A stretch of 64,000 nt of DNA from Tubulanus polymorphus (Eukaryota; Nemertea; Palaeonemertea; Tubulaniformes; Tubulanidae), in assembly GCF_964204645.1 (NCBI RefSeq), contig NC_134036.1, positions 5,715,600 to 5,779,599 on the forward strand, read 5' to 3'. The position numbers and the translations under genes are program-made. Shown here one piece after another: positions 3,001 to 59,130 of the stretch; within the stretch, counting starts at the first letter, position 1; each line of letters starts with the position of its first letter. The notes under the pieces are model-generated. The model was not told the origin of the DNA, did not search any database, and saw only the letters and a list, made by a program, of their open reading frames with translations.

Positions 3001-5163
3001 TTCCTGTGTAACAGTGGAGACTGTATCAGTTCTCAGTTGTATCAGGATGGTGTCGTGGATTGCAGTGGAAGCGTTGAAGAAGATGAATTAGTAACAACTA
3101 CTAACGTTACAGTGAATCCTCCGATTGAGTGCAATAATAAGAACCTCTGTTCGACTAACTTCACAAATATCTGTGCAAAACCTGATGAACAAAGATGTTC
3201 TTTTAATTCTCCTCATTGTTATTCAAGACGTCACAGATGTATTCTAGATAGAATGACGAATGGTTTTGCAGTTTGTAGAAATCTCGAGCACGTACTGAGA
3301 TGTGAAGAATTTGAATGTCCAGCTGGTACTGTAAAATGTCCAGCATCGTACTGTATACCGATCAGACAGGTATGCGATGGTCAATCAGATTGTCCTAGTT
3401 CAGAAGATGAACAAAACTGCGAGACATTTTCATGTCCAGGAATGTTTAAATGTGGTCAGGAAAATCGATGCATTTTACAATCCGAAGTTTGTGACGGTGT
3501 GGTAAATTGTAAATACACAACTGATGACGAGGCTTTCTGTGAGGTCACGTGTCCTATGGGTTGTAGGTGTCAAGGTCTTCTGGCCGATTGTGGAAATACC
3601 GGTCTTACTGATATTACTGGACTTATATCGGTATCAACTCGAGTTTTAATCATGTCGAATAATCAAATTAATTTCAACAAGTCGACATTTAATTCACTCG
3701 CTTATCTCTACGTTCTCAACATCTCGTCCAATGGATTGTATCGTATTTCACCAAACTCGTTCACAAACCTGCATAATCTACATACGTTAGATCTAACACA
3801 CAATAACTTAACATCGTTATCCGTAAACACCTTCGCCGGTTTGTACAGTTTGAAAGGGTTATTCTTAACCGGAAATCCGCTGCGATATTTAGAAGAAGGC
3901 TGTTTTCAAGATCTGCAGTCCCTTCTAAGTCTTGATCTTCACGGACTTTTTCTTGTCGCCTTAGCTGAACATGTTTTTAAAGGTCTATTCTCATTGAAAT
4001 CTTTAAACATCAGCGGCAACAACATTTTGTATATCTCAATATACGCTTTTTCAGGGTTAAATGAACTCACAATACTTGATATTACGAAAAATTCGAAAGT
4101 TATCTCAGTCAAGCGAAACGTCTTCGACAATCTGACGTCATTAGTCTCCCTCACGTCTGATGCTTACAAATTTTGCTGCATGGCTCCGAATGTTGACCGG
4201 TGCCTTCCCGAAGCTGATCAGTTTTCCTCCTGTTCCGATCTGATGGGTAACAAAGTCCTCAGAGCTGTCATCTGGGTAATTTCCGCGTTCACCTTCGTTT
4301 CGAATAACGTCGTCGTTTTCTTTCGTTTTCGATCTATTCGAATTTCGTCGGGTGAATCGCGTAGCACATCGTCCAACATCCTCATTATCAATATCGCGGC
4401 TTGTGATTTTCTGATGTCGATTTATTTGTTTTTGATCGCGGGAGCGGATTACGTTTATAAAGGAGTTTATTTCCTGAATTCAGAAACCTGGACGAACAGT
4501 TCACTCTGTCGCTTCGCTGGTGTAATTGTGACTATTTCTTGTGAAGGCTCGTTGACGTTTCTTTGTATTCTAACACGGCATAGATTCTCGAATATCGTTA
4601 ATCCATTTTCCTCGAATCCGCTTACATCTCCCAGATACGTGTCGATTATTTGTTCGCTTAATTGGTTAATCATAGCAACATTTTCATTAGTGCCACTGGT
4701 AGGGTCTTCTTATTTCGGAGAGAAATTCTACGGAACTACTGGAGTCTGTTTACCTATGAATTTAATTTCAATCGATGTCAAAGCCTGGCAATATTCGTTC
4801 GCTATTTTTGCCGTGTTTAACTGTGGCATACTCGCTACGATAATGTCGACTTATGCCCAAATGTACAGATACGCATCCGGAAGCAGGGCAGGTTCAGGTA
4901 GAGTCGAACCCACCGAACTGGTCTTAGCGCGCAGGAGTTTGGTGATAAATCTGTGTAATTTATTTTGCTGGCTGCCGTTAATTACCGTTCAGTTTAGCGC
5001 GGTATTACGAGTAGAAATACCGAATCAGGTGGCGGCTTGGCTGGCGGTTCTTTTCTTACCGATCAACTCGTCGCTCAATCCCCTTCTTTACACCATTCTG
5101 ACTATCGATATGGAATCCATTCGAGCAAAAACTAAACGCAGACAACATCGAACAGACAAATGA
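2..5163 (+). CDS. GRL101-like mosaic G-protein-coupled receptor (CUB / C-type lectin / LDLa / LRR / 7TM), 5' end missing
   Basis: Plasma-membrane receptor of the leucine-rich-repeat GPCR class (relaxin-receptor/GRL101 type). Exons read as 2-277, 357-1688 and 1873-5163, all phase 0, with introns gtgagt...tag (79 bp) and gtaagt...tag (184 bp). At least 1632 residues are visible. Domains in order: CUB-like modules (clearest near 1072-1390), a C-type lectin domain split by intron 2 (about 1450-2135, with a YTWTDGKPLSYTEW core), a second diverged lectin-like module (2250-2625), five to six LDLa repeats (2641-3540, DGSDE-type calcium acids), an LRR N-cap (CPMGCRC), LRRs (3640-4150), a Cys-rich hinge, then seven TM helices (4255-5110). 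Rhodopsin-class marks are present: CWLP in TM6 and NPLLY in TM7. The DRY motif is replaced by TRHRF. The stop is at 5161. The ligand is unknown. The family assignment is firm; the missing N-terminus lies before the window. Confidence 0.93.
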
Positions 5164-7089: not shown

Positions 7090-9331
7090 CTAATAATCGG
7101 AAGTTGCGTATACGGAATTCCTCCAGGGGCTTCCACATATTTCTTTCGGGTTTCCAGCGCACTTCATCCGGCATTGAGATTTCGGCACTGGACCGTACTT
7201 GCCGACACGATTGCCGCAGAAACATTCCGCACTATACTGAAGTCCGGCGAACATAAATTCTGGATGAAAAAAAATCTTCAAAGATAATAGTGCGAGTATG
7301 CTTTTGTTGGGAATCGGGTAACGATATTCACGGGAGTTATCAACACAGGCTGAACGGGAGAGGGGGCTCAAGTTAAGACGATTTGGATGGCACCCACAGA
7401 ATCTGACACAGCTCCCTGGTAGATCATGAAAACTGCGAGCGCGTCCTTACCTTTTTTCTTACAAATACCGATACACTTCCCGATTGTCATAGATTTGTCT
7501 GAGTTTGCAGCATAGGTCGTCAAATCTCTGATTTTGCGGTCTTCAAAACATCCGACGTAAGTCCGACATCCCGATGTCATATTTCCGTTGTCTGGAATTC
7601 GAATGTTTGATCGTTGATTAATGTATTCATAATGAGCTACGTTTTCGAGCGTTTACTGCTACGTGTGACTCATAGGTGTCTGGGGCCATCGGTCACGGTT
7701 ATTAGAACAAAACATATCTAATATATTCTTCTCTTATCCCCTCTTATAGCCCTTTTTTGATATTATTTCATTGACATTTAAATATATGTGTTTATCCATT
7801 CATCGCGTATAAACTTAACATGAAAATGAATCATATCATATCATTACGTAACATGGGTTACATTGCGTGATCGCGCTAAAAACCAAAGTTATCTTTGAAA
7901 AAAGCCATGCGAAATATTGAAATACGCGTGTATTTGCCGGTTAGGACATTTCTTGGTTATTTCATTCGGTTTCGAAATTTTAGACGAATCTAAATAGGCT
8001 AATCGGGGATGAAGATAGAAACTAATGATATCTGTCATGAAAATTATTCATAACAATAAAATGCTAAAATGAAAAAAAAAGAATGGAAAACAGTGATTAG
8101 AAACTGCTTGTGGAACGTATCGAATTAAAACGTTAACTATGCAAAATTAAGGGGTTCGGAAACTATCAATTCTAATATCATTCTTTCGTGTGCGTCAGCA
8201 AGAAGGAACCGTCGAGTTGGAAAAGCACGCACACTGCAACCGGCTCTCCGAAGTAATCAATGAATGTTTTATTCAGTTTGGTGATCAGTGAATGTTTAAG
8301 GTGCTGGAACCAATTGAAGCCATGCAGGCAAATGGTTAAAAAATCGTTGAAAGCCCAATTCAATCCTAACAATTATTTGCCGAATAACAACGGAAACCAC
8401 TTTACCACTCGAAACTGGTGAATACATTTTCTATTAGGTAGCTACAACAAATCACATTTATATTTGCATATCTTCGATTATAATATACATTTAATCCTCT
8501 TTTCTGGCTAGAGACAAAGTACGATGCTGAAATAATTTGCAACGTGTCACTTTAAAGTTTGAGATAATTTTGAAAACGCCTACGATGTTACAGAGAAAGA
8601 AAATGTTTCCTTGAATAGAATCGCGATATTTCGATGATTGGGGCTGAAATAGGAAAAATCGGTGGTCGATTGTCTGAAAATTGAATGTATCTATAATTGC
8701 TATCATTTCCCCAACTCGTTACATGTGTACAATGTATTTCGAGATACCAATCAAGCGATGATTAACTTTTTAAATTTCAAATTCTCTCCATTGCTGTTCA
8801 GGAACAGCGTCATATCGCTACCACATGTAGATCCACATTCAAAATAGATTACATAAAACTGCAGACAAAGAAGCCCAGCCAATCGGAAAAAAAAATTAAT
8901 TTGATTTAGTGTAGCCCCAAGAATCCTGAATACCATAACTGACATAGAATAATGCGATGATTAAAAGTAAAATCATAACTCTGACGCATGATGAGATATT
9001 CGATGGCTAAACCTTATTGAGAATCCCAGTAGATTGCATTTTATTGACATTTTCCAAATGTACTATATCGTATTGAAATTCATCAATTAGAAATTTATAA
9101 AGTAATGAAGTAGAAGATATATTAGTACGATTAAAGTAAACACAACGGTCGTTTATTCAAGCACACTTAAACTCGAACTAAACTAATATCACATTTGAAC
9201 TTACCGTCGTTAGCCGGCGTTGTCGTGGTGCATAACAATTCAGGAACTCGCGTTCGAACCGGTTCTGAACGTGACGTCACGTATGACGCCATCATCAGCA
9301 GCACGGCTCCCAGTGTTAGTAAATAACTCAT
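7090..9331 (-). CDS. Small secreted WSC-domain protein (three coding exons)
   Basis: Minus-strand exons 9331-9205, 7591-7451 and 7259-7090 join in consistent phase 1/phase 1 and give 145 residues. Exon 1 starts with ATG directly after a cag acceptor and encodes a hydrophobic signal ([14 protein letters not shown]...). A likely untranslated exon ends at a gtgagt donor near 9390. Exons 2-3 encode one WSC domain: [50 protein letters not shown], then a SVYAT end. WSC domains bind carbohydrate in fungal sensors and animal secreted proteins. Only this domain is present, with no membrane anchor. Linking exon 1 to the WSC exons across a 1.6-kb intron is my inference from phase; extra exons could lie between (an open minus-strand stretch at 8178-8372 is unexplained). 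Confidence 0.7.
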
Positions 9332-18723: not shown

Positions 18724-20344
18724 TTAAGGAACATAGGTTGAATGGTTTAATCGAATATTTGGAGTAGTTAGGGACGGCTGAGAACTATCATATAGTTGGT
18801 CCCCATCCACCGCCACCAGATGAAGCCACGATTTACGGTTGGTTTCCCCGTCGGTTGTCTCCGGCAGAACTCGACGCCTATCGTCGACGTCACCGTCACC
18901 CTTTGCTCGTGGAAATCCCGGGTTTTCTTCGACTTCGACGACGATTGCTGCCGGCACGAGCCCCCCGCTATCGTCCACGACGAATCTTCGACCGGTGCGA
19001 GGACAGACGAGGTCGGTGGATAGTTTATCGCATTTTTCGTTGACCCAGCCACGCTGTACGGCTGGGTTACCGTACACGAGCGCGTACGCTTTCACGTCCT
19101 TGGTGACGACGGCGCCGGCTCCGATCATCGCGTACCGGCCGATGCGCACGCCGCACACGACCGTTGCGTTGGCGCCGATCGTCGCGCCGCGCTCTACGAC
19201 TGTCGATTCGGGTTTCCAGTCTCTTTTTTCGGCACGGGGATGGCGATTATTGGTGAATGTGCACGACGGGCCGCAGAATACTCCGTCCGCTAGCGTCACG
19301 TAGCGGCAGACGCTGACGTTATTCTGCAGTTTGCAACCGCGCCCGATTGTGACGCCCGCATCGATGTACACGTTCTGACCTAGTTGACAGTCGGGACCAA
19401 TAACAGCGCCGGACCTTACTTGCGAATACAGCCAGATTTTTGTGCCCGATCCGATTTTACAGCCTGGTTCCAATACGGACGTCTCGTGCACGAAGTAATC
19501 GTGTTTGCTTTCCATTCGTAAATCCTGGACTCGAACCCGATGACGGAAAACATCTCGTCTTTCATAACAAGTGACGTTATCGAAGTTACCTTCGTCGAAT
19601 TGGGCCCGATTCAAATATTCGTCGATTAGGCGCCAAGAACCGTCCGATTCGAGAGACTCGTGCGCCAGTTCCAAGAGGCACAATACATCGATGCCGAGAT
19701 CGTCCGGCGCACACGACTCCGTGCTTCCGTCGCCATAAGACACGATCGCCTTCGCGAAAGCGGAGTGCTCCGATTTCAAAGGCTCCTCTACGCAGCAGGG
19801 GACGAAAAAACCACCATCGCTAGCGTCTGGAGTACCGGTCAACGAAAATCTCACAGCGTCTACGTCGGAGTCGGTCGGGTAGAATTTTAGTTTTTTGCTC
19901 CAAGGCTGCCCGTCGTCAAACACAAACGCGCCTGCCTTACCGTTGACCACGATTTTGTGTCCCTTGACTGGATAATCCCAAATCATCGTCGACGTGGTTT
20001 TCAGGCCGGTGCCGTCGCCGAACTCCATACGAATATCGACCTCTTGCGAGAGGCCCCTTGTCGTTTGACCGACCGCTCTGAGTCGCAGGGGCATGCGACC
20101 GCCGGCTACGGCCAGTATGACGTCGATATCGTGCGGTTCCATACGCCAGTCAACACGATCGGTCGTGTCCGAGCGGTACCAGTAGGTTCGCACGGTCGTC
20201 ACGTCACCGATCGCGCCGCTCGAGATCGACCGCAACATCGCCTGTACGGCGTTGTGGTGTAGCATCTGATGCCCAGTCGTTACCAGCAGACGGCGTGAGT
20301 CGGCTCGACGCACCAGTCTCCTCGCTTGCGCGTACGACAGAGTC

Positions 20345-20376
<32 letters not shown>

Positions 20377-20622
20377 TCGTAACGCCTGTTCGGCCAGGTC
20401 GTAATGGCTGCGGTCAGGCGTGGCGATGACCACAGCGTCGACGGAATCATCGGCGAGCATCTCGTCCAGGCTGTAAACGGCGACGCCCGGGTGTGTTCGG
20501 CGAAATGACGCGACGGTCGCAACGTCCCCGTCGCATACGCCGGCCAGCGAGCCGCGCTCGATCAAAACCCGCACGTGGTTCTTACCACAGTAGCCGCAAC
20601 CTATCACTCCTATTCTCAACAT
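18724..20622 (-). CDS. Truncated copy: dehydrogenase + N-acetyltransferase fusion lacking the aminotransferase
   Basis: Single intact minus-strand frame of 632 residues from MLRIGVIGCGYCGKN to the stop at 18724-18726. The ATG was chosen because it matches the start in both full copies and follows a ttattatttcag-like acceptor 14 bases upstream (a probable 5' UTR intron). Residues 1 to about 340 are a Gfo/Idh/MocA dehydrogenase: GCGYCG dinucleotide fold, VEKPMT, and EPHDID in place of GPHDIA. About 380-530 is a hexapeptide-repeat acetyltransferase (LADGVFCGPSCTFTN, GAGAVVTKDV, YGNPAVQRGW). It ends with a short unrelated tail (LTTPNIRLNHSTYVP) where the long copies continue through a linker into the aminotransferase. 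It is visibly more diverged than the other two copies. It could be a working bifunctional enzyme or a relic. Confidence 0.85.
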
Positions 20623-21724
20623 TTCGCTTCTTTGCCTGAAATAGTACGATGATGAAATATACAATATCCGCATGTCATGGATTTTCCTCGTAGAATTAAA
20701 ACGGGCTCATTATCTAGTGAGTGGGATACGGCGCCGACGACGTTCTTTTCGCGCGCAGTGCTGAGCGACGAACAAAGTTCGCACGAATCGAGTTGGCCGC
20801 TAACGCTGCGCGGGTAACACTCCAAATCCCGTCTTGAGATTGAGCGAACTCGCAGTTAGGCTGGGTATCGACGATGCGAAAGACATAAAGCGAAATGAAA
20901 CGGGATGTTACAAATTAGCCTGAAATGTACCCCTGTTTTTACTATTTCGACGTTTACTTACATATCCTCGAACTAGACGATCAATGCCTGTGTACGATGC
21001 GCGTATTGTGGCTGCGCTTATATTCACTATGAAAATGAATATATGCACAGCCGCATTATGCGATTCGAGTTAAAAACGAATAAATCATGAGGTTTTACTA
21101 TCGCTCTCGGCTGCGTCTAAATCATCGTTTTAGGTCAATCGAGCAATTCGGATACGAAATTACTAGCAATTCTATAGCATGATTTTATTTCCCGACGACG
21201 AAACGAAGGCCTTGTGATGACGGTAATTGATAGATATGATATGGTATGATATGATTCGTTTCCGAGTAAAATTTTACAGAATCAATGAATAAGCAAATAC
21301 GTTGAAAATGTTATAATATCAAAAGAAGGTCTGCTTTGAGCAACAGTTAGCTTATACAAGAAAACAGCCCTAGAAAAGAGTGAGAAAAATATATAATTAC
21401 GGATCATTATATAACGTATCGACATACATCCGAGGAATTTCGGTAGGTAGCCGCGCATGCGCAATGGTTTCAACCGCATCGATACGGTCAGACGAGAAGG
21501 CGTTTCATCCAATGCTATTTTCATAGCGTAAGGCGTCGCGACCGCCTGATACTGATCTTTAACCACCGATCATTTATCGAACATTATAGCGGATAAATAA
21601 AAAAATATCCACACGAGGTCAGCGGTATTTACGCGACATTTTGAATTCAGTTCATATATAGCGCCATTCTCGCGCGAGATTATCAACCACCGGGAAATGA
21701 AATCCAAGCCAGTTTACAAGCCCC

Positions 21725-22198
21725 TTGCGATATAAGAAACCACCCAAACCACCAATTAGACTTTGTCTGGCGGAACTCGATTATCCGGCTCCGTTCAGGC
21801 CTGAAAGTAAGTCACAAGTAAATCATAATTTTGTCACCAAGAAGATAGATTTGTATAAAAAGGCTCAAATTCTGCATGTTCTGCGGAGTAAGAACAAGCT
21901 CTCTGTCGAAAAAATACTGTTAGCTGCCGCGAAACGAAATAAATATAAAGATGCTGAAATTGTAAACGAAATTGATATATTCCAAATACTACTCGTCCAA
22001 CGACGTACTTTAACGGTTGAAACTGTAAGTACTTCTAAGGGAGTGATGTTATATCGTATTGGTGATCATGATCGACGCATCGATAGAATGGATGATCACG
22101 AGTGTACTAGATGTGGTTCTGGGTTCAGCTTGAGTGTATGGACTATACAACGCGCCGGGAAGCTAGATACACCGGTTTTTGTCTTTAGTTCCAACTAG
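21725..22198 (+). CDS. Hypothetical frame repeated in both duplication units (unit A version)
   Basis: Open frame of 157 residues beginning MRYKKPPKPPIRLCLAELDY, with a basic middle (KKIDLYKKAQILHVL, KILLAAAKRNKYKD). It is convergent with the sugar-enzyme gene. I recognise no family. The unit B copy has a one-base indel after the EIDI stretch and stops at 98 residues, which argues against selection on the C-terminal part. A gtaagt follows 'ttgaaact' near 22025, so it may instead be an exon. Confidence 0.25.
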   Translation: MRYKKPPKPPIRLCLAELDYPAPFRPESKSQVNHNFVTKKIDLYKKAQILHVLRSKNKLSVEKILLAAAKRNKYKDAEIVNEIDIFQILLVQRRTLTVETVSTSKGVMLYRIGDHDRRIDRMDDHECTRCGSGFSLSVWTIQRAGKLDTPVFVFSSN

Positions 22199-22375
22199 TC
22201 GCGGATTTTACTTCAGTCCAGAAATGTTTCAATCAGAACCGTAACTAACGCCTAATCTGGGAGTCGATATAAATTCAGTAAAAATATGCCACAATATGTG
22301 AATATTGTGTATTTAAAGATATACTTCGGTGTGTAAATAAAGCTAAAAAATCGCTTCGCTTTTAATGATTTTGAT

Positions 22376-25300
22376 TTACTTTCGTAGGGATTCAACGAGG
22401 GCTCCGGCGACGCGTTCGACCTCGTCGCGGCGCAGGTAACCATGAACGGGCAGGCTGAGTATACGCGGTTGAATTGCGTCGCTGACCGTCAACTCCGGTC
22501 GCAAGTAGTCGGCGAAGGCGGGCAGTTCGTGCAGCGGTCCCGGCTCGTAGTAGACGTTCGTTTGTATCCGGTGCCGCCGATGAAGATCGTCAACGACGCG
22601 GCCGCGGTCGCAGTCGGCCGGTAAGACGACCGTGTACGCCGTCCACGAGGACGACACGCCGGCAGGTAGCGTCGGGGTCGCAACGCCGTGCGGCGATAGC
22701 AGCCCGCAATATCGCTCGGCGACGCGACGCCGCGATTCGATTTCGTCGGGGAATATTTTCAGTTTTTCTAGCAGTACGGCCGCTTGTACGGTATCTAAAC
22801 GACTGTTCATGCCGACTCGTTCGATGTGGTATTTGTGGCGCGGACTGCGGCCGTGAGCGCGCAGACTCCTGACCGCGGCCGCTAACTCGTCGCTGTTGGT
22901 GAATACGGCTCCGCCATCTCCGTAACATCCTAAATAGGAACAGAAATATCGGAATACGTTATTATCGAATGGGTTATACTGCAGTAATATAGAATCCCAC
23001 TTGTGGCAAGCGAGGATCCGCCAGGTTCGCTAGTAGTTATTCGGTCCTCCACGCTCATTTTGTTCTATATTTCAATAGGCCAAGACGAAAATAAAGAACC
23101 TTTCTCCAAGAAAATTAAGTTAACAACAAAAGAATCTTCCACTAATATCAATGAATTATATACGCCAAACCGACGAATAAGTAGAAAATAATTGTAATTA
23201 TATATTAGGCGGGTCCTTTGAAAATGCATGGATTCGGGAGAATGTTTGATGCAACTAATTTCTATAACGATTGTTGAAATTGAATGCTCGTAACGCCATC
23301 TGGCGGGATAGCTTGTGTGGCCGTCCCCCAAATCGGCTGAAATTAACACACGTCATACCTAGAGCTTTCGCCGGGTAGAAACTGGTCGTCGTTATTTCGC
23401 ACAGGTTTCCCACTTTCACGCCGTTGCGCTCGGCGCCGAAACTTTGCGCGGCGTCGGCCACGACCCACAGGTCGTTGACTCGAGCGACGGCGTCGATCGC
23501 GTCGTAGTCGGCCGGCTGGCCGTACAGGTCGACCGCCACGACGCCGGTAGGTCGCAGCCCGTTGCGTGTGGCCAACTCGATTGCTGAAACAAAAGAAAAG
23601 ATTTTAGATCTAGATGGAAATGTTGTATCAAATATGCCATATGAAATAAATGCGATGAATCAAAATAGCAGCCAATTATCTGTTAGTTTGAACAGGATTT
23701 TATTGCGAGTATCAAAACAGTTTTAAAAAGTGCTCAATTAGATAATAATTCGTTTTTTAAGGGACCTTTAAGTGCTGATAGTGTTTTTTTAGCGTTCATC
23801 TCCAAAGGTTCTTCACCGCTCTTTATTCCGAATACATGATTCATTTTCTAGCTGTTCGCTTGCATTTTATCCTCCTAAAAATAACGTCATTTACCTTTTA
23901 AGAGACTCTTCTCGTCCATGTTGAACGTGTCTCGATGAACGTCGACGAACACGGGCGTCGCGCCGGTCGTTACGACCGCTTCGACCGTGGCGCAGAACGT
24001 GTTCGCCGGCACGAACACCGCCTGGTGCGGTCGCGTGGCGCCCTTCGCCGTCAGAGCCAGGCGCAGCGCGTCGGTGCCGCTGGCGCAGGTCACCGCGTGT
24101 TTACAACCGCAGAATCGAGACAACTCGCCTTCCAGCAGAGCGACGTCCGGACCGAATACGAACTGACAGCTATCGATTACGGATATGACGCGTGATTTAA
24201 GGGATTTTTCGATCGCTTTCAGTTGCCGTTCCAAACCGGCGAACGTGATTGGAGCCGGTGAAATATCGCCATCGGCAGAAGCAGTCGGAGTTTCGAGCCG
24301 AGGGTTATGGCTGATTCGATTCGTATCTTCTTGGTTGAGCAGTGATTCGCAGTTGGTTTCCTTGTTACTTGAATCCTCGGAGAATCGAAACCCATCGCAT
24401 ATATCTATGACCCTAACAGTCTTGTTGGGTTCGGGGTGAATGGCGTTTTCCTTGTCGGTTGCTGCCGAAGACGGCTGAAAACTATCATCGAGTTGGTCCC
24501 CATCCGACGCCGCCAGATAGAGCCACGATTTGCGGTTGGTTTCCCCGTCGGTTGTCTCCGGCAAAAGTCGAAGCCTCTCGTCGACGTCACCGTCATCCTT
24601 TGCTCGTGGAAATCCCGGAGTTACTTCGACTCCGGCGACGCTTGCTGCCGGTACGAGCCGTCCGCTACCGTCCACGACGAATCGTTTACCGGTGCGAGGA
24701 CAGACGAGGTCAGCGGTTAGTTTATCGCGTTTGTCGTTGACCCAGCCGCGCTGTACGGCCGGGTTACCGTACACGAGCGCGAACGCTTTCACGTCCTTGG
24801 TGACGACGGCGCCGGCTCCGATCATCGCGTACCGGCCGATGCGCACGCCGCAGACGACCGTCGCGTTGGCACCGATCGTCGCACCGCACTCGACGACTGC
24901 CGATGCGGGTTTCCAGTTTTTCAGTTCGGCACGCGGGTGGCGGTCGTTGGTGAACGTACACGACGGGCCGCAGAATACGCCGTCCGCTAGCGTCACGTAG
25001 CGGCAGACGCTGATGTTATTCTGCAATTTGCAACCGCGCCCGATTGTGACGCCCGCATCGACGAACACGTTCAGACCTAGTTGGCAGTCGGGACCTATAA
25101 CGGCGTCGGGCATTACGTGCGAATAAAGCCAGATTTTTGTACCCGACCCGATTTTACAGCCCGGTTCCAACACGGACGTGTCGTGAACGAAGTAATCGTA
25201 TTTGCTTTTGATTCGTAAATCCGGGACTCGAACCCGGTGTCTGCCATTATTTCGTCTTTCGATTCCATTTACGCCATCGTCATTACCTTCATCCAATTGG

Positions 25301-26047
25301 TTGAAATCTAAATATTCGTCGACCAAGCGCCAGGAACCGTCCGATTCGAGAGACTCGTGCGCCAGTTCCAAGAGGCAAACGACATCGGCGCCGAGGTCGT
25401 CCGGCGCACACGACTCCGTGCTACCGTCGCCATAAGACGCGATCGCCTTCGCGAAAGCGGAGTGCTCCGATTTTAACGGCTCCTCTTCGCAGCACGGGAC
25501 GAAGAAGCCGCCGTCGCTAGCGTCTGGAGTCCCGGTCATGGAAAATCTGGCGGCACCCACGTCCGAGTCGGTCGGGTAGAATTTTAGTTTCTTGCTCCAA
25601 GGCTGACCGTCGTCAAAGACAAACGCGCCTGCCGTACCGTTGACGACGATTTTGTGTTCCTTGACCGGATAATCCCAAATCATCGTCGACGTGGTTTTCA
25701 GGCCGGTGCCGTCGCCGAACTCCATACGAATATCGACCTCTTGTGAGAGGCCCTTCGTCGCCTGGCCGATCGCTCTGAGTCGCCAGGGCATGCGACCACC
25801 GGCTACGGCCAGTATGACCGCGATGTCGTGCGGTCCTAGATCCCAGTGAACGTGACAGGTCGCGTACGAGCGGCCGCGATGCCGTCGAGTTCGTACGGTC
25901 GTCACGTCACCGATCGCGCCGCACGAGATCGACCGCAACATCGCCCGTACGGCGTTGTGGTGTTGCATCTGATGCCCGGTCGTTATCAGCAGACGGCATG
26001 CGTCGGCTAGACGCACCAATCTCCTCGCTTGCGCGTACGACTGGGTC

Positions 26048-26079
<32 letters not shown>

Positions 26080-26325
26080 TCGTAACGCCTGTTCGGCCAG
26101 GTCGTAATGGCTGGGTTCGGGCGTGGAGATGACCACAGCGTCGACGGATTCGTGGGCGAGCATCTCGTCCAGGCTGTAGACGGCGACGCCCGGGTGTGTC
26201 CGGCGAACTGACGCGACGGCCGCGGGATCCGCGTCGCATACGCCGGCCAGCGAGCCGCGCTCGATTAAAACCCGCACGTGGTTCTTACCCCAGTAGCCGC
26301 AACCTATCACTCCTATTCTCAACAT
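22376..26325 (-). CDS. Trifunctional sugar-nucleotide enzyme: WlbA-like dehydrogenase + WlbB-like acetyltransferase + WlbC-like aminotransferase (copy A)
   Basis: Predicted to make UDP-2,3-diacetamido-2,3-dideoxy-glucuronate from UDP-GlcNAc-uronate: 3-oxidation, transamination, N-acetylation. Minus exons 26325-23895, 23583-23359 and 22929-22376 join in phase 1 and give 1069 residues. Residues 1-340: Gfo/Idh/MocA fold (GVIGCGYWGKN, VEKPMT at 89-94, GPHDIA near 164). 379-530: left-handed beta-helix acetyltransferase of WbpD type (FCGPSCTFTND, GAGAVVTKD, YGNPA). About 555-690: a polar linker rich in Asp/Ser/Thr. 693-1069: DegT/DnrJ/EryC1 aminotransferase with ASGTDALRL, ADAAQ (Asp near 854) and the PLP lysine in SFYPAKALG (near 883), then CYGDGGA across the last junction. 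Domain lengths are normal for each family. The start is shared by all copies and follows a cag acceptor. GC content is visibly higher than in neighbours. Cofactors and order are inferred from bacterial homologues. Confidence 0.93.
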
Positions 26326-27315
26326 TTCGCTTCTTTGCCTGAAATAATACGACGAAGAAATATCGGTTAATAACGTCCGCGTATTATATTATTTATCTCC
26401 CTCGTAGTATTAAAACGGGCTCATTATCTGGTGAGTGGGATACAGCGTCGATGATGTTCTATTCGCAAGCAGTGCTGAGTTCCAACGAATATAGTCGGCC
26501 ACTGATAATGTTCGGGCCACGTTTCGAATCCTTCATCTAAAGACGGAACCCAAAAATGGCGCCTGGAAACTGTTAAAAGGCTTATTACCATGAATTCTAT
26601 CGCTGGTTTTACTATTTCGACATTTACTTACTTACCCCGGAACTATAGACGAAAGGAATCTCCGTGTACGATGCGCGTATTAGTGATTATTCATTCGATC
26701 CACACATGTGGCAGGGTATACATTCGTTATGATTCTTTTAAACCCCTGCGTCGTTTATCATAATTATTAGGTCGAGCAGATCGGATACGTAATTATCAGC
26801 GTTTTTTTTTTGGTATAAACATTTTCCCGGTGACATACCGAAGTCCGTTCGATCTACGAGCAATTATCTCAATTGGTTCGACTAGGTTAATCGTTCGGAT
26901 AATAGATGAATACGATCGTTTTATTTAATGATGTCGAAATTCAAAATTTCGGGATCAAAAGTTCATACGATTTATATGTTTATATTTATCAGATACGCGT
27001 GACTGATCTGCGGCTGAAGTCTGACCTGAGAAAGTTCATTCAGTTTAGTGCCAGAAAACTAGAACAGAACCGAAGGAAAATGAAAAAATGGTCGTTGATG
27101 ATATCCGATATTGGCGTTCAGCCTTTCAATACGCGTGCATTTACAGAAACGCGCGCGCTCCGTCTTATGCACATCTGGGTACGATTAAAATTTAAAAAAT
27201 ACGTTCGGCGTCGCTGTTAAAAAGTGATTTAACCGAAAATCCCCGATCGGACCGGTGATAAAAACTGGAGTGATTAAGCGAATTGAATAGATTGTTGTGA
27301 GACAATCGATATTCG

Positions 27316-27332
27316 TATATATATATATATAT
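27316..27332. repeat. Short (TA)n tract, unit A
   Basis: Seventeen bases of alternating TA at the position where unit B has 167. Confidence 0.95.
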
Positions 27333-28043
27333 CTTCGATGAAATATAATCGACGCATTGTGGGTGCTCGAAGAGCGGTGGTTGGTATGAGTCTATCGCTG
27401 AGTATGAGACTATCGCTCTCGGCTGCGTCTAAATCATCGTTTTAGGTCAATCGAGCAATTCGGATACGAAATTACTAGCAATTCTATGTTATGATTTTAT
27501 TTCCCGACGACGAAACGAAGGCCTTATGATGACGGTAATTGTTAGATAGATATGTTATGGTATGATATGATTCGTTACCGAGTAAAATTTTACAGAATTA
27601 ATGAATAAGCAAATACGTTGAAAATGTTATAATATCAAATGAAGGTCTGCTTTGAGCAACAGTTAGCTTATACAAGAAAACAGCCCTATAAAAAAAGAGT
27701 GAGAAAAATATATAATTACGGATCATTATATAACGTATCGACATACATCCGAGGAATTTCGGTAGGTAGCCGCGCATGCGCAATGGTTTCAACCGCATCG
27801 ATACGGTCAGACGAGAAGGCGTTTCATCCAATGCTATTTTCATAGCGTAAGGCGTCGCGACCGCCTGATACTGATCTTTAACCACCGATCGTTTATCGAA
27901 CATTATAGCGGATAAATAAAAAAATATCCACACGAGGTCAGCGGTATTTACGCGACATTTTGAATTCAGTTCATATATAGCGCCATTCTCGCGCGAGATT
28001 ATCAACCACCGGGAAATGAAATCCAAGCCAGTTTACAAGCCCC

Positions 28044-28340
28044 TTGCGATATAAGAAACCACCCAAACCACCAATTAGACTTTGTCTGGCGGAACTCGAT
28101 TATCCGGCTCCGTTCAGGCCTGAAAGTAAGTCACAAGTAAATCATAATTTTGTCACCAAGAAGATAGATTTGTATAAAAAGGCTCAAATTCTGCATGTTC
28201 TGCGGAGTAAGAACAAGCTCTCTGTCGAAAAAATACTGTTAGCTGCCGCGAAACGAAATAAATATAAAGATGCTGAAATTGTAAACGAAATTGATATAAT
28301 TCCAAATACTACTCGTCCAACGACGAACTTTAACGGTTGA
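28044..28340 (+). CDS. Hypothetical frame, unit B version (frameshifted)
   Basis: Counterpart of 21725-22198 and identical through the EIDI stretch. It then reads out of frame because of one added A (gatataattcc against gatatattcc) and ends at 98 residues. No family recognised. Probably not a protein gene. Confidence 0.2.
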   Translation: MRYKKPPKPPIRLCLAELDYPAPFRPESKSQVNHNFVTKKIDLYKKAQILHVLRSKNKLSVEKILLAAAKRNKYKDAEIVNEIDIIPNTTRPTTNFNG

Positions 28341-28707
28341 TACTGTAAGTGCTTCTAAGGGAGTGATGTTATATCGTATTGGTGATCATGATCGACGCAT
28401 CGATAGAATGGATGATCACGAGTGTACTAGATGTGGTTCTGGGTTCAGCTTGAGTGTATGGACTAAACAACGCGCCGGGAAGCTAGACACACCGGTTATT
28501 GTCTCGTTTTTGTCTTTTAGTTCCAACTAGTCGCGGATTTTAATTCAGTCCAGAAATGTTTCAATCAGAACCGTAACTAACGCCTAATCTGGGAGTCGAT
28601 ATAAATTCAGTAAAGATATGCCACAATATGTGAATATTGTGTATTTAAAGATATACTTCGGTGTGTAAATAAAGCTAAAAAATCGCTTCGCTTTTAATGT
28701 TTTTGAT

Positions 28708-31700
28708 TTACTTTCGTAGGGATTCGACAAGGGCTCCGGCGACCCGTTTGACCTCGTCGCGGCGCAGGTAACCATGAACGGGCAGGCTGAGTATACGCGG
28801 TTGAATCGCGTCGCTGACCGTCAACTCCGGTCGCAAGTAGTCGGCGAAGGCGGGCAGTTCGTGCAGCGGTCCCGGCTTGTAGTAGACGTTCGTTTGTATC
28901 CGGTGCCGCCGATGAAGATCGTCGACGACGCGGCCGCGGTCGCAGTCGGCCGGTAAGACGACCGTGTACGCCGTCCACGAGGACGACACGCCGGCAGGTA
29001 GCGTCGGGGTCGCAACGCCGTGCGGCGATAGCAGCTCGCAATATCGCTCGGCGACGCGACGCCGCGATTCGATTTCGCCGGGGAATATTTTCAGTTTTTC
29101 TAGCAGTACGGCCGCTTGTACGGTATCTAAACGACTGTTCATGCCGACTCGTTCGATGTGGTATTTGTGGCGAGGACTGCGGCCGTGAGCGCGGAGACTC
29201 CTGACCGCGGCCGCTAACTCGTCGCTGTTGGTGAATACGGCTCCGCCATCTCCGTAACATCCTAAATAGGAACAGAAATATCGGAATACGTTATTATCGA
29301 ATGGGTTATACTGCAGTAATATAGAATCCCACTTGTGGCAAGCGAGGATCCGCCAGGTTCGCTAGTAGTTATTCGGTCCTCCACGCTCAGCTCATTTTGT
29401 TCTATATTTCAATAGGCCAAGACGAAAATAAAGAACCTTTCTCCAAGAAAATTAAGTTAACAACAAAACAATCTTCCACTAATATCAATGAATTATATAC
29501 GCCAAACCGACGAATAAGTAGAAAATAATTGTAATTATATATTAGGCGGGTCCTTTGAAAATGCCTGGATTCGGGAGAATGTTTGATGCAACTAATTTCT
29601 ATAACGATTGTTGAAATTGAATGCTCGTAACGCCATCTGGCGGGATAGCTTGTGTGGCCGTCCCCCAAACCGGCTGAAATTAACACACGTCATACCTAGA
29701 GCTTTCGCCGGGTAGAAACTGGTCGTCGTTATTTCGCACAGGTTTCCCACTTTCACGCCGTTGCGCTCGGCGCCGAAACTTTGCGCGGCGTCGGCCACGA
29801 CCCACAGGTCGTTGACTCGAGCGAAGGCGTCGATCGCGTCGTAGTCGGCCGGCTGGCCGTACAGGTCGACCGCCACGACGCCGGTAGGTCGCAGCCCGTT
29901 GCGTGTGGCCAACTCGATTGCTGAAATAAAAGAAAAGATTTTAGATCTAGATGGAAATGTTGTATCAAATATGCCATATGAAATAAATGCGATGAATCAA
30001 AATAGCAGCCAATTATCTGTTAGTTTGAACAGGATTTTATTGCGAGTATCAAAACAGTTTTAAAAAGTGCTCAATTAGATAATAATTCGTTTTTTAAGGG
30101 ACCTTTAAGTGCTGATAGTGTTTTTTTAGCGTTCATCTCCAAAGGTTCTTCACCGCTCTTTATTCCGAATACATGATTCATTTTCTAGCTGTTCGCTTGC
30201 ATTTTATCCTCCTAAAAATAACGTCATTTACCTTTTAGGAGACTCGTCTCGTCCATGTTGAACGTGTCTCGATGCACGTCGACGAACACGGGCGTCGCGC
30301 CGGTCGTTACGACCGCTTCGACAGTGGCGCAGAACGTGTTCGCCGGCACGAACACCGCCTGGTGAGGTCGCGTGGCGCCCTTCGCCGTCAGAGCCAGGCG
30401 CAGCGCGTCGGTGCCGCTGGCGCAGGTCACCGCGTGTTTACAACCGCAGAATCGAGACAACTCGCCTTCCAGCAGAGCGACGTCCGGACCGAATATGAAC
30501 TGACAGTTATCGATTACTGACATGACGCGGGACTTAAGGGATTTTTCGATTGCTTTCAGTTGCCGGTCCAAACCGGCGAACGTGATTGGAGCCGGTGAAA
30601 TATCGCCATCGGCAGAAGCAGTCGGAGTTTCGAGCCGAGGGTTATGGCTGATTCGATTCGTATCTTCTTGGTTGAGCAGTGATTCGCAGTTGGTTTCCTT
30701 GTTACTTGAATCCTCGGAGAATCGAAACCCATCGCATATATCTATGACACTCACAGTCTTGTTGGGATCGGGGTTAATGGCGTTTTCCTTGTCGGTTGCA
30801 GCCGAAGACGGCTGAAAACTATCATCGAGTTGGTCCCCATCCGACGCCGCCAGATAGAGCCACGATTTGCGGTTGGTTTCCCCGTCGGTTGTCTCCGGCA
30901 AAAGTCGAAGCCTCTCGTCGACGTCACCGTCATCCTTTGCTCGTGGAAATCCCGGAGTTACTTCGACTCCGGCGACGCTTGCTGCCGGTACGAGCCGTCC
31001 GCTACCGTCCACGACGAATCGTTTACCGGTGCGAGGACAGACGAGGTCGGCGGTTAGTTTATCGCGTTTGTCGTTGACCCAGCCGCGCTGTACGGCCGGG
31101 TTACCGTACACGAGCGCGAACGCTTTCACGTCCTTGGTGACGACGGCGCCGGCTCCGATCATCGCGTACCGGCCGATGCGCACGCCGCAGACGACCGTCG
31201 CGTTGGCACCGATCGTCGCACCGAGCTCGACGACTGTCGATTCGGGTTTCCAGTTTTTCAGTTCGGCACGCGGGCGGCGGTCGTTGGTGAACGTACACGA
31301 CGGGCCGCAGAATACGCCGTCCGCTAGCGTCACGTAGCGGCAGATGCTGACGTTATTCTGCAATTTGCAACCGCGTCCGATTGTGACGCCCGCATCGACG
31401 AACACGTTCTGACCTAGTTGGCAGTCCGGACCTATAACGGCGTCGGGCATTACGTGCGAATAAAGCCAGATTTTTGTACCCGACCCGATTTTACAGCCCG
31501 GTTCCAACACGGACGTCTCGTGAACGAAGTAATCGTTTTCGCTTTTGATTCGTAAATCCGGGACTCGAACCCGGTGTCTGCCACTATCTCGTCTTTCGAT
31601 TCCATTTACGCCATCGTCATTACCTTCATCCAATTGGTTGAAATCTAAATATTCGTCGACCAAGCGCCAGGAACCGTCTGATTCGAGAGACTCGTGCACC

Positions 31701-32384
31701 AGTTCCAAGAGGCAAACGACATCGGCGCCGAGGTCGTCCGGCGCACACGACTCCACGCTACCGTCGCCATAAGACGCGATCGACTTCGCGAAAGCGGAGT
31801 GCTCCGATTTTAACGGTTCCTCTTCGCAGCACGGGATGAAGAAGCCGCCGTCGCTAGCGTCTGGAGTCCCGGTCAAGGAAAATCTGGCGGCGCCCACGTC
31901 CGAGTCGGTCGGGTAGAATTTTAGTTTCTTGCTCCAAGGCTGCCCGTCGTCAAAGACAAACGTGCCTGTCGTGCCGTTGACGACGATTTTGTGTTCCTTG
32001 ACTGGATAATCCCAAATCATCGTCGACGTTGTTTTCAGGCCGGCGCCGTCGCCGAACTCCATACGAATATCGACCTCTTGCGAGAGACCCTTCGTCGCTT
32101 GGCCGATCGCTCTGAGTCGCCGGGGCATACGACCACCGGCTACGGCCAGTATGACCGCGATGTCGTGTGGTCCTAGACACCAGTGAACGTGACTGGTCGC
32201 GTACGATCGGCCGCGATGCCGTCGAGTTCGTACGGTCGTCACGTCGCCGATCGCGCCGCTCGAGATCGACCGCAACATCGTCCGTACGGCGTTGTGGTGT
32301 ACCATCTGATGCCCGGTCGTTAAGAGCAGACGGCATGCGTCGGCTAGACGCACCAGTCTCCTCGCTTGCGCGTACGACTGGGTC

Positions 32385-32416
<32 letters not shown>

Positions 32417-32662
32417 TCGTAACGCCTGTTCGGCCAGGTCGTAATGGCTGGGCTCGGGCGTGGAGATGACCACAGCGTCGACGGATTCGTGGTCGAGCAT
32501 CTCGTCCAAGCTGTAAACGGCGACGCCCGGGTATGTCCGGCGAAATGAAGCGACGGCCGCGGGATCCGCGTCGCATACGCCGGCCAGCGAGCCGCGCTCG
32601 ATCAAAACCCGCACGTGGTTCTTACCCCAGTAGCCGCAACCTATCACTCCTATTCTCAACAT
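28708..32662 (-). CDS. Trifunctional sugar-nucleotide enzyme, copy B
   Basis: Same three-exon structure as copy A: 32662-30232, 29920-29696 and 29261-28708. Exon lengths are identical (2431, 225, 554 bp), as are the phases, and the protein is 1069 residues. All diagnostic motifs are intact: GCGYWGKN, VEKPMT, GPHDIA, FCGPSCTFTND, ASGTDALRL, ADAAQ, SFYPAKALG and the CYGDGGA continuation. Amino-acid differences from copy A are few and conservative, for example STVVEL against SAVVEC in the beta-helix, KPGPLHEL against EPGPLHEL in the aminotransferase, and ICRYVTL against VCRYVTL. The frame is open ten codons upstream of the chosen start, but that stretch crosses the probable 5' UTR splice acceptor (ttattatttcag). 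Both full copies look functional. Confidence 0.93.
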
Positions 32663-33611
32663 TTCGCTTCTTTGCCTGAAATAATACGACAAAGAAATAT
32701 CGGTTTACAACGTCCGCGTATTATATTATTTATCTCCCTCGTAGAATTAAAACGGGCTCATTATCTGGTGGGTGGGATACGGCGTCGATGATGTTCTATT
32801 CGCAAGCAGTGCTGAGCGACGATCAAGAGTTCCAACGAATATAGTTGGCCACTGACTGTGTTCGGGCCACGCTTCGAACCGTGAATTCTTTCGCTGGTTT
32901 TACTATTTCGACATTTACTTACTTACCCCAGAACTATAGACGAAAGGAATCTCCGTGTACGATGCGCGTATTAGTGATTATTCATTCGATCCACACATGT
33001 GGCAGGGTATACATTCGTTATAATTTTTTTAAACCCCTACGTCGTTTATCATTATTATTAGGTCGAGCAGATCGGATACGAATTTATCAGCGTTTTTAAT
33101 GGTATAAACATTTTCCCGGCGACATACCGAAGTCCGTTCGATCTACGAGCAATTATCTCAATTGGTTCGACTAGGTTAATCGTTCGGATAATAGATGAAT
33201 ATGATCGTTTTATTTAAAGATGTCGAAATTCAAAATTTCGGGATCAAAAGTTCAAAAGTTCATACGATTTAATTGTTTATATTTAACAGATACGCGTGAC
33301 TGATCTGCGGCTGAAGTCTGACCTCAGAAAGTTCATTCAGTTTAGTGCCAGAAAACTAGAACAGAACCGAACGAAAATGAAAAAATGGTCGTTGATGATA
33401 TCCGATAGTCGCGTTCAGCCTTTCAATACGCGTGCATTTACAGAAACGCGCGCGCTCCGTCTTATGCACATCTGGGTACGATTAAAATTTAAAAAATACG
33501 TTCGGCGTCGCTGTTAAAAGGTGATTTAACCGAAAATCCCCGATCGGACCGGTGATAAAAAGTGGAGTGATTAAGCGAATTGAATAGATTGTTGTGAGAC
33601 AATCGATATTC

Positions 33612-33781
<170 letters not shown>

Positions 33782-48500: not shown

Positions 48501-51500
48501 TCGAACCTGATGGCATCGCGAGACTCTGCCACGTTCCTCCCTTGCAGGGATTCGAACCCGATGGCATCTAGCGAGCGACTCCACTGCGTTCCTCACGAAA
48601 GATAAAAAATACTCTACTTACTCGATACAGAAAGACTGGCACAGTGCCAAACTTTGGAAAATATTGTCGCGCCGTTTCGGTTTACCGCATCCTTTGTATT
48701 CGAACGATGAGCATTCTCCGGATTGCTCCGAGTCGAAGTAGAATCTGGTGTCGGGTTTTGGATTTGGGCACGAGTCCAGACCTTCGAATTTGGCCGCCTT
48801 GCATCTCCTGAAATTTATCGACCATCAAAAAATCGTTATTGAAGATTTCTCATGGACCTATATCTGCCCGAACTATACGAGCGAATTGCTCATCGGCCTG
48901 ATGGAAATCTTTGCTTTCTTCTCACGAAAGACTTGAAGGAAAGGAAGGACCTCTTTGACCCAGCCGGTGGCAATGTCACGTTTGGCGTGACGAGGAAAAT
49001 CTTGAGGTAGCGGCAATGTCTCGAAATCCGTGACTGACCTACTAACTTATTGACCGCTAGATGGCGAAGGTGGCTGCTCTAACTGCACTATGGCATGCTC
49101 TAAAGCAGTCTTATTCGTTGAAAAGCCAAAACACTGATAGGTGGCGTTGCTTTTTTGGAAATACTTTTTCCAGAAAAATTGCAAAAAAAACCGTAAAATG
49201 TGAAGAAAATTATCTTTTTAATTCGCCACTAAAAGGGTTGAAGCAACAGTTAGTTTATGCACGAAATCAAAACTTGAAAATAGCGAAAAAGTAATATAGG
49301 AAACCCCTGACGTCTAGAATAGAAATCCCTGACGCCCGATACGTACTCTGAAATGAATCCGTGCATGCGCCCGAGACGTTCGAGTCGAACCTTTTCGCGA
49401 TGCGCCTTCAAACTGGCCTTCATCTCGTCACCTGTCGAAATAAACAAAAGGAACCCATTTACGGCGTTCATATCTGTATTCAAGTAATGAGTTTAATTCT
49501 TGAGAGCGTTTGCCCGGTTCTACAGTTAACCCCGACGTACTCGGCAAAACATTTGTTTCGCCGAGACAGAAAACACGTACTATTACAGAAAACGATTTTT
49601 CTCCTGAAAAACATTTTCAGTTCGGCTTTTTTGTTTTGCCTCCGCCGCACACGACGCATAACCAAAAAACATCGAAAAAGTTTTTTTCACGAGGATCAAA
49701 CGTTTTTCTTTCGGTGCCGTGTGCGTTGGGCTTAAGCTTTTACAAAACTATTTCAGCTGAGCTCACCGCCGGTGAGTGCAAGTATTTCGCGGTATCTTCC
49801 GTACTATAACAAATACTCACACGATCCGACTGTGACGTCATCTGTGCCTGTTTCTACGTCATCTTCGGTGTCGTCGGACATTTCGATTTTGCAAGCTTCG
49901 ATCTTTGCCGGCAATCTGTATGAATTGAAAGGAACATTTCGAACAGTACGTCAAGTGCGTTGAAAAACACATATGCTCGTTGGTTTCCATAGACAAGTGG
50001 CTGTCCAATATCAATAGTTGACAAAATCCCGCAATAAAAAGAAAAACTACCTGGTAGTTTGACGTTTCAACTCAAATCTATGAGCCATTTCCAAAAACAG
50101 TTTTTGAAAATGGCTCATAGATTTGAGTTGAAACTTCAAGCTACCAGATAGTTTTTCTTTTTATTGTGGGTTTTTGTCAAACTACATATGCTCGTATTCC
50201 GCAAAGAGTATAACTTATCAAGCTGCACCTGTTGGCGTCGCGGGGCTCTACACCACACTCCCCTCCCTCTCGTAGATATCTGAACCTTAATGCTTCGCGA
50301 GACCCTATACCACGTTCCTCCCTCGCATGGATCTGGACCTGATAACATCGTGAGAATCTGCCACGTTCATCCCTGACGGGGATTCGAACCTGATGGCATT
50401 GTGAGACCTAGCCACGTTCATCCCTCACAGGGATTCGAACCTGATGGCATTCTGATGGCATCTGCCACGTTCCCCCTCCATAGATATTTGAACATGATAG
50501 CATCACGAGATTCTGCCAAGTTCCTCCCTCGCAGGGATCTGGACCCGATAACATCGTGAGACTTAGCCACGTTCTTCCCTCACTGGGATTCGAACCTGAT
50601 GGCATTCTGATGGCATCTGCCACGTTCCCCCTCCATAGATATTTGAACATGATAGCATCACGAGATTCTGCCAAGTTCCTCCCTCGCAGGGATCTGGACC
50701 CGATAACATCGTGAGACTTAGCCACGTTCTTCCCTCACTGGGATTCGAACCTGATGGCATCGCGAGACTCTGCCACGTTCTTCCCTCTCGCAGGGTTTCA
50801 TCTCCACCAATTCCCGCCCCAGCTCGGGCCCTGTCCACACCCCGGATTAAGAATCTGATCTGACTCTACTCACTCGATACAGAGGGACTGGCACAATTCC
50901 AGACTGTGGAAAATGTTGTCGTTTCGTTTCGGTCGGCCACATCCTTTGTACTCGAACGGCAAGCACTCTTCGTTGTCAGAGTCGTAGTAATATTTGTCTG
51001 CCGGTCTCGGGTTCTTGCACGAGTCGGTACCTTCGAATTTAGCCGCCTCGCATTTCCTGAAATCATGCGATGCGTAATTGAGTAATTATAGAGAACAACT
51101 AAGGACTTGACCAAAAAAAACATGATATAAACGCCGTCGTATAGGGAAATATTTACGAATCGTAACTTTACCGGATGAAGTATCTAGATCGGCGCTATAA
51201 GCTTAGCGTGGCTAATCGAAATATTAAACCCGAATTTTTTTTTGTTTTCAAGATTTTGAAATTAAATGGCTGATAATAGAATCGAGTTGAAACGTCGGAC
51301 TATCTTTCAGTTTTTTTTTTGTTCCTCTTACTCTGGGTTTATCTTATGCATCGATTACTTTGGTAAGTGGTTTGCATCGGGACTGACGCTTTTCCTTATT
51401 GACCGGTGACGTGAACAACGTCTGCTTCGTCGCCTATGCTCATTGGTCGATTTCGTGCAAAGGCCGAATACAACATCGCCAGCCTACCAGTATTTCTTAG

Positions 51501-57267: not shown

Positions 57268-57480
<213 letters not shown>

Positions 57481-57688
57481 TATACAAATACATATTAATC
57501 AAGGCGTGCAACTGAAGTAATTGAATCGGAGTTTTTGTTAATACTTTTGCTGAGGAGTAGTCGATGTCAAGAGTCATACGCGGAACTGCGATCAACGAAT
57601 GACGTTCATATTGAACATCTTGAAAATATGCACAGACGAATCGGAAACAGTTAATAAACCCGATTGTTGATTTTTTCATACTCGCAGT

Positions 57689-58754: not shown

Positions 58755-59130
58755 AACGGGTTCGAATCCAAGCCGGGGAGGAGTGCGCGCTGTCATCAGG
58801 TTCGAATCCCTGCAACGGAGGAACGTGGCAGGGACTCACGATGCAATCAGGTTCGAATCCCTGCGAGGGAGGAACGTGGCAGAGTCTCACAATGCCATCC
58901 GGGTTCGAATCCCTGCAACGGAGGAACGTGGCAGGGTCGAACGATGTCATCAGGTTCGAATCCCTGCGAGGGAGGAACGTGGCTGAGTCTCGCAATTCCA
59001 TCGGGTTCGAATCCCTGCGACGGAGGAACGTGGCAGAGTCTCACAATGCCATCCGGGTTCGAATCCCTGCAACGGAGGAACGTGGCAGGGTCGAACGATG
59101 TCATCAGGTTCGAATCCCTGCGAGGGAGCG
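58755..59130 (+). repeat. Box-B satellite array, about six monomers of 59-60 bp
   Basis: Each monomer carries GGTTCGAATCCCTGCGAGGG (or caacgg) + aggaacgtggcagagtctcac + gatgccatc. GGTTCGAATCC is a perfect Pol III box B / T-arm sequence. A three-monomer block repeats (58860-58980, 59040-59125). Confidence 0.9.

Follow-up and report, generated by a model that had tools for sequence, protein, structure and literature searches.

We analyzed a 64-kb stretch of the genome of Tubulanus polymorphus, a palaeonemertean ribbon worm (Nemertea), referred to below as the window (G000:C12:5715600-5779599), which belongs to a contig of 11,548,486 bases (C12) in an assembly of 268 Mb and 77 contigs. On its minus strand lie two intact copies of a gene that codes for three bacterial-type enzymes in one polypeptide, in the order Gfo/Idh/MocA 3-dehydrogenase (DH), WlbB-like N-acetyltransferase (ACT), and WbpE-like pyridoxal phosphate aminotransferase (AT). 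Copy A is located at 22376-26325 (exons 26325-23895, 23583-23359, and 22929-22376) and copy B at 28708-32662 (exons 32662-30232, 29920-29696, and 29261-28708). Both have three exons that add up to 1069 codons plus a stop, with no internal stop, and the two triple-enzyme genes are thus where the initial annotation of this DNA had placed them.

Gene structure and genomic setting

All introns are of the GT...AG type, with sizes of 311 and 429 bp in copy A and 311 and 434 bp in copy B, and their acceptors are near-identical in the two copies. Both introns split the AT part, and exon 1 holds the DH, the ACT, and a linker. The two exon junctions of copy B agree with a public NCBI model (P0002, 665 amino acids, 100% identical to residues 405-1069 of copy B) entitled "UDP-2-acetamido-2-deoxy-3-oxo-D-glucuronate aminotransferase-like [Tubulanus polymorphus]," so the AT part has already been named by the NCBI annotation. 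An AG|G acceptor is found 13 nt 5' of the ATG in copies A and B, in a third, shorter copy (copy C), and in a paralogue on another contig (P0003). This acceptor and the 5' exon seen in P0003 make it likely that the genes of the family have one more 5' exon upstream of the annotated ATG, although blastn found no counterpart of the first exon of P0003 near A, B, or C.

The genes reside in the nuclear genome of the animal, as can be seen from the introns, the position 5.7 Mb inside the contig, and the presence of a receptor gene in the same window, and the description of an intron-containing animal gene therefore holds. Contamination or misassembly would be in line with the GC content, which is 0.43 to 0.58 over the genes (2-kb bins, 18 to 34 kb) versus 0.36 to 0.47 elsewhere in the window, and hence higher, as could be the case for bacterial DNA. 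This explanation, to which we give practically no weight, was rejected because of the introns, the animal neighbors (open reading frames [ORFs] for an LGR-type receptor and a WSC domain), the three tandem copies of graded divergence, and the paralogue on a second contig (C3, 27,807,848 bases).

Domains, motifs, and fold

The Pfam models GFO_IDH_MocA, Hexapep, and DegT_DnrJ_EryC1 match copy B (exon 1 and P0002) far above their cut-offs, so the domain assignments are not chance matches, and the motifs named in the initial annotation (GCGYWG, EKP, and GPHD; FCGPSCTFTN; ASGTDAL, ADAAQ, and SFYPAKALG) are all present. The DH of copy B (residues 1-345, 31628-32662, minus strand) has the Gfo/Idh/MocA fold and keeps GCGYWG, E90-K91-P92, and H166-D167. 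K91, H166, and D167, which we take to be the catalytic residues, are kept in copies A and B, as are the glycines G8, G10, and G13. The AlphaFold2 (AF2) model of this domain is well folded, with 28 of the first 34 ten-residue blocks at a predicted local distance difference test score (pLDDT) of at least 85. Sequence and structure comparisons place the DH at a similar or slightly smaller distance from GnnA, a UDP-N-acetylglucosamine (UDP-GlcNAc) 3-dehydrogenase, than from WlbA, so that the name "WlbA-type" given to it at first is a loose one, whereas the WlbB and WbpE likeness of the other two enzymes was well chosen. Exon 1 of copy B scores 97.6 bits with the NCBIfam model for GnnA (NF040723), far below the curated 450 bits.

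The ACT of copy B (residues ~377-560, 30983-31534, minus strand) is a left-handed beta helix that matches the WlbB structure 3mqg with an E value of 1.7e-48. It contains the FCGP..FTN and GATIGANAT motifs, the AF2 model agrees, and 41 of 54 columns are kept in copy A and 44 in copy B. It is followed by a linker (residues ~561-691, 30590-30982, minus strand) that is probably disordered, with a pLDDT under 50 for residues 570-684. Last, the AT (residues ~692-1069, 28708-30589, minus strand, with both introns inside) has the DegT fold, with 309.5 bits for PF01041 in P0002 and a TM score of 0.96 to 3nu8, and K883 of copy B aligns with K185 of WbpE at the Schiff-base lysine position.

Copies, paralogue, and selection

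Copy B is 96% identical to copy A, and the two belong to tandem duplication units (21097-27332 and 27409-33629) that are 96 to 97% identical and offset by ~6.3 kb. Copy C (18724-20622, minus strand, an ORF of 632 amino acids with ~84% amino acid identity to A) keeps the DH and the ACT and has lost the AT, as no AT exon was found beside it by tblastn. The paralogue on contig C3 (P0003, locus L084) codes for a DH and an AT with just a stub of the ACT left within the same exon, which indicates that the ACT was lost at the DNA level and not via splicing.

Ratios of replacement to silent substitution rates (dN/dS, by NG86) were 0.37 for A-B (dS 0.054), for A-C (dS 0.26), and for A and the P0003 exon (dS 0.65). 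By domain, we obtained 0.33 for the DH and 0.26 for the ACT in A-C, and 0.34 for the DH and 0.26 for the AT (137 codons) in A-P0003, with the DH staying at 0.31 to 0.34 across four comparisons. Judging from these values, the genes appear to have been in the worm for a long time and to remain under purifying selection. A short stretch before the ACT runs counter to this trend, with four replacements and no silent change between A and B.

Proteins with a DH and an AT and no ACT come from fungi (P0192, P0199, P0202, P0204, P0205, and P0206), from unlabeled sources, and from the worm (P0003). As P0003 groups with the worm's own copies, this two-domain form likely arose repeatedly. Another DegT (PF01041) match in the genome, with an open frame of 361 amino acids (L094, G000:C1:15338704-15339186, minus strand), is apparently outside the three-domain family.

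Fused genes in bacteria and fungi and origin of the worm genes

The initial annotation regarded these enzymes as separate proteins in bacteria, which does not agree with the relatives that we found. Among 211 proteins fetched by similarity (three of them the worm's own, and part of the set obtained via a length window that favors fusions), there were 84 DH-ACT-AT, 29 DH-AT, 10 ACT-AT, and 85 DH-ACT arrangements, plus 3 others. None of the 84 triple chains is from the worm, and the named records include Clonostachys rosea, Alternaria tenuissima, Actinomycetota, Acidimicrobiales, and Desulfomonilaceae. Within 80 GTDB loci among the matches listed, the DH and the ACT share one ORF in 21, 17 of which carry a further ORF for the AT within the locus, and no single ORF contains the three domains. 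A fusion unique to the animal was rejected, given that bacterial and fungal DH-ACT-AT chains exist. The DH-ACT fusion most likely predates the transfer to the animal, so from the history first put forward (acquisition of an operon, then fusion, then intron gain), we would retain a likely bacterial origin of the gene set and move this fusion to before the transfer.

Six trees were built from hand-picked subsets of these proteins (330 by the time of the careful AT tree) and of the 80 loci. They comprised quick trees of AT (95 rows), DH (113 rows, including the very long row P0211), and ACT (94 rows), a concatenated tree (43 rows), a careful AT tree (61 rows), and a DH-ACT tree (50 rows). In pairwise comparisons, the worm protein scores highest with P0032 for the DH (39%) and with P0212/P0214 for the AT (50 to 53%), and its ACT also matches fungal-type fusions well. 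The 14 best matches listed were all DH-ACT proteins on the DH side and all single ATs on the AT side, the single ATs having been deliberately fetched beforehand. In the careful AT tree, the worm joins P0231, a single-domain AT of Pseudomonadota (support 95/86), with P values of the approximately unbiased test (p-AU) of 0.047 for worm plus fungi, 0.10 for worm plus Actinomycetota, and 0.042 for the three together. In the DH-ACT tree, the worm branch has a length of 3.2 and no partner (p-AU of 0.51 with fungi and 0.27 with Actinomycetota). Pairwise scores and the one AT tree lean toward a Pseudomonadota-type pair of DH-ACT and AT genes, in which case the AT may have been joined to DH-ACT within the animal, and, because the worm branch is long, the trees as a whole are compatible with more than one donor.

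A less probable origin is that the gene came ready-made as DH-ACT-AT, either from a fungus or, for worm and fungus alike, from one fused bacterial donor, so that nothing was fused in the animal. Fungal proteins with the same order do exist (P0004 and P0039), a grouping of worm and fungi is not rejected in the DH-ACT tree or in the concatenated tree (p-AU of 0.24 in the latter), and the quick AT tree joins them (SH-aLRT 85). However, once the single-domain Pseudomonadota ATs were added, this grouping fell to the edge of rejection and the worm moved to P0231, and the best matches listed are not triple fusions for either the DH or the AT.

A viral route was dropped, as an IMG/VR scan gave five relatives whose listed matches cover residues 5-492 of a query of 907 and none reaches the AT. 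In the part covered of a review of giant-virus glycans (PMC9614988), we found nothing on a Wbp-type pathway. Tubulanus is the sole animal named among the best 120 matches of each protein search, which is weak evidence of absence from other animals, as most matches are nameless.

Predicted reaction and substrate

According to the part covered of PMC10622841, the synthesis of UDP-2,3-diacetamido-2,3-dideoxy-glucuronic acid (UDP-GlcNAc3NAcA) proceeds by successive 3-oxidation, 3-transamination, and 3-N-acetylation of a UDP-sugar. With moderate confidence, we propose that the worm protein is a one-protein cytosolic pathway for the 3-acetamidation of a UDP-sugar, with an enzyme set likely acquired from bacteria. 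With NAD+, the DH would oxidize the sugar at C3 (K91 and H166 are kept), the AT would transfer an amino group from glutamate onto C3 via K883, yielding 2-oxoglutarate, and the ACT would N-acetylate the 3-amino group from acetyl-CoA. The linker, with ~115 probably flexible residues, would tether the AT to the ACT, and we would expect the reactions to take place in the cytosol.

The genomic context of the relatives bears on the substrate. A nucleotide-sugar 6-dehydrogenase is present in 9 of the 21 bacterial DH-ACT loci (7 with >50% identity to, or identical with, those of the references L014 and L015, and 2 at 29 to 35%) and a 2-epimerase in 5, 2 being the references. The two 6-dehydrogenases that were checked have UDP-N-acetylhexosamine (UDP-HexNAc), and not UDP-glucose, dehydrogenases as top equivalog models, with scores below the cut-offs. 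Given this leaning of the neighbors, the ancestral setting of the gene set fits UDP-GlcNAc3NAcA synthesis. In the worm genome, PF03721 gives four matching stretches in one place on contig C5, the first of which (the first exon) matches solved UDP-glucose 6-dehydrogenases in 14 of 14 matches listed. Only this ordinary UDP-glucose 6-dehydrogenase (UGDH) and no WbpA-type UDP-GlcNAc 6-dehydrogenase was found, in an exon-wise search that a diverged gene could escape, and there were no matches to the 2-epimerase (WbpI, PF02350), in a search without an animal positive control. The diacetamido-uronate product initially suggested thus lacks its first enzyme among the genes found, and a uronic-acid product is doubtful, given that UGDH is the only 6-dehydrogenase detected, that the search for a 2-epimerase gave no match, and that the stem branch of the DH is so long.

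It is rather unlikely, then, that the substrate is UDP-N-acetylglucosaminuronic acid (UDP-GlcNAcA) and that the protein catalyzes on it the same three steps as Wbp/Wlb, to UDP-2,3-diacetamido-2,3-dideoxy-glucuronic acid. Such a route would need a promiscuous UGDH, an unrecognized dehydrogenase, or a symbiont as the source of UDP-GlcNAcA. In its favor, the nearest named solved AT (WbpE, Pcryo_0616) and ACT (WlbB) are uronate-pathway enzymes and the two 6-dehydrogenases checked in the bacterial loci lean to UDP-HexNAc, but the DH has diverged the most, and one Arg and one Glu that its relatives conserve are lost. The missing dedicated enzymes, the long DH stem, and the changes at R154, E157, and H400 would suggest that the first step has shifted to a sugar that the worm itself owns. 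UDP-GlcNAc appears as the most likely single choice, tentatively, with UDP-2,3-diacetamido-2,3-dideoxyglucose as the product; UDP-GlcNAcA and then UDP-glucuronic acid (UDP-GlcA) made by UGDH rank only slightly lower. More speculative is the complete scheme, in which the gene would provide the whole route from the UDP-GlcNAc/UDP-GlcA pool to a UDP-3-acetamido sugar, with a DH retuned from uronate and the sugar built into mucus or skin glycans.

Several observations weigh against the proposed pathway or its substrate. R154 and E157 of the DH, conserved in relatives, are changed in copies A and B, and H400 of the ACT motif WHFSH, conserved elsewhere, is Leu in both. In the quick trees, the worm DH stem has 3.89 changes per site versus 0.99 for the AT and 1.17 for the ACT. 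These residues and the long stem may mean that the activity is partly changed or lost. Moreover, the NCBI model of copy B begins inside the ACT and has no DH, P0003 has Thr in place of the EKP lysine, and dN/dS of the ACT between A and B is 1.0 (9 replacement and 3 silent changes). As to the substrate, the nearness of both AT and ACT to uronate-pathway enzymes argues against plain UDP-GlcNAc, and the likeness of the DH to GnnA is common to a bacterial relative, so it is not itself a pointer to a non-uronate sugar.

Some of these observations would also be expected if the DH no longer oxidized a UDP-sugar and the worm used just the ACT-AT part, or an unrelated reaction, with the rest being structural or regulatory, which we consider improbable. 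The start of P0002 within the ACT and the very long DH stem would fit, and so would the family members with missing parts (copy C without the AT, and P0003 without the ACT and the EKP lysine). Against it, the DH is under constraint in all four comparisons, its presumed catalytic residues and glycines are kept in both A and B, and its model is well folded.

Other features of the window

An apparently uninterrupted ORF of 1095 amino acids at 1873-5157 (plus strand) resembles LGR/relaxin receptors in that it combines leucine-rich and LDL-receptor class A repeats with a seven-transmembrane domain of the rhodopsin type, and a WSC domain is split over two overlapping ORFs at 7096-7652 (minus strand). 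Tandem repeats of ~51 bp at 50310-50787 and 58791-59128, on opposite strands, carry GGTTCGAATCC-like words that resemble the tRNA B box; ARAGORN called no tRNA in them, and Rfam and tRNA scans of the 64-kb window gave no matches. Long TA-rich arrays of the dinucleotide type are found at 33613-33779 and 57268-57495.

Novelty and comparison with known systems

Few kinds of monosaccharides make up the glycans of animals, and to our knowledge animals are not known to make a 3-acetamido sugar of this kind. Among the matches listed in our literature search, no paper was found, by title or abstract opening, that deals with this gene or with an animal pathway of the Wbp type. A predicted tri-domain UDP-sugar 3-acetamidation protein of bacterial type in an animal is thus undescribed in the literature searched, even if the kinds of enzymes are known. 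If active, it would give the animal a resident route to a 3-amino-3-deoxy sugar, encoded by one gene under selection, and would lengthen the list of animal monosaccharides, and, if our reading is true, a multienzyme bacterial pathway entered an animal and ended as a single heritable unit. The parallel fused genes of fungi are named generically or by one domain in the records seen.

The nearest known counterparts are WbpB-WbpE-WbpD of Pseudomonas and Wlb of Bordetella, which carry out the same three successive UDP-sugar reactions as those predicted for the worm (part covered of PMC10622841). The worm ACT is nearest to WlbB and its AT to WbpE among named solved enzymes. The worm differs in having one intron-split animal gene and one polypeptide, with a DH that is at least as close to GnnA as to WlbA, and the genome search turned up neither a dedicated 6-dehydrogenase nor a 2-epimerase. 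The solved GnnA chain, of 321 amino acids, has room for the dehydrogenase only, unlike the worm protein. Bacterial loci with a DH-ACT gene followed by an AT ORF (such as L004, L013, and L015) have a domain order identical to that of the worm, but the AT has an ORF of its own, and in these three loci the AT match starts 12 to 50 bp past the DH-ACT stop. Last, the triple fusions of Actinomycetota (P0028), Clonostachys (P0004), and Alternaria (P0039) share the three domains, their order, and the motifs. The best local alignments of the worm protein reach 35 to 37% over about half of its length with P0004 and P0039, and 46% over a third with P0028. With 1069 amino acids and introns in its AT part, compared with 891 to 982 amino acids for the bacterial and fungal fusions, the worm protein stands outside any well-supported clade of them.

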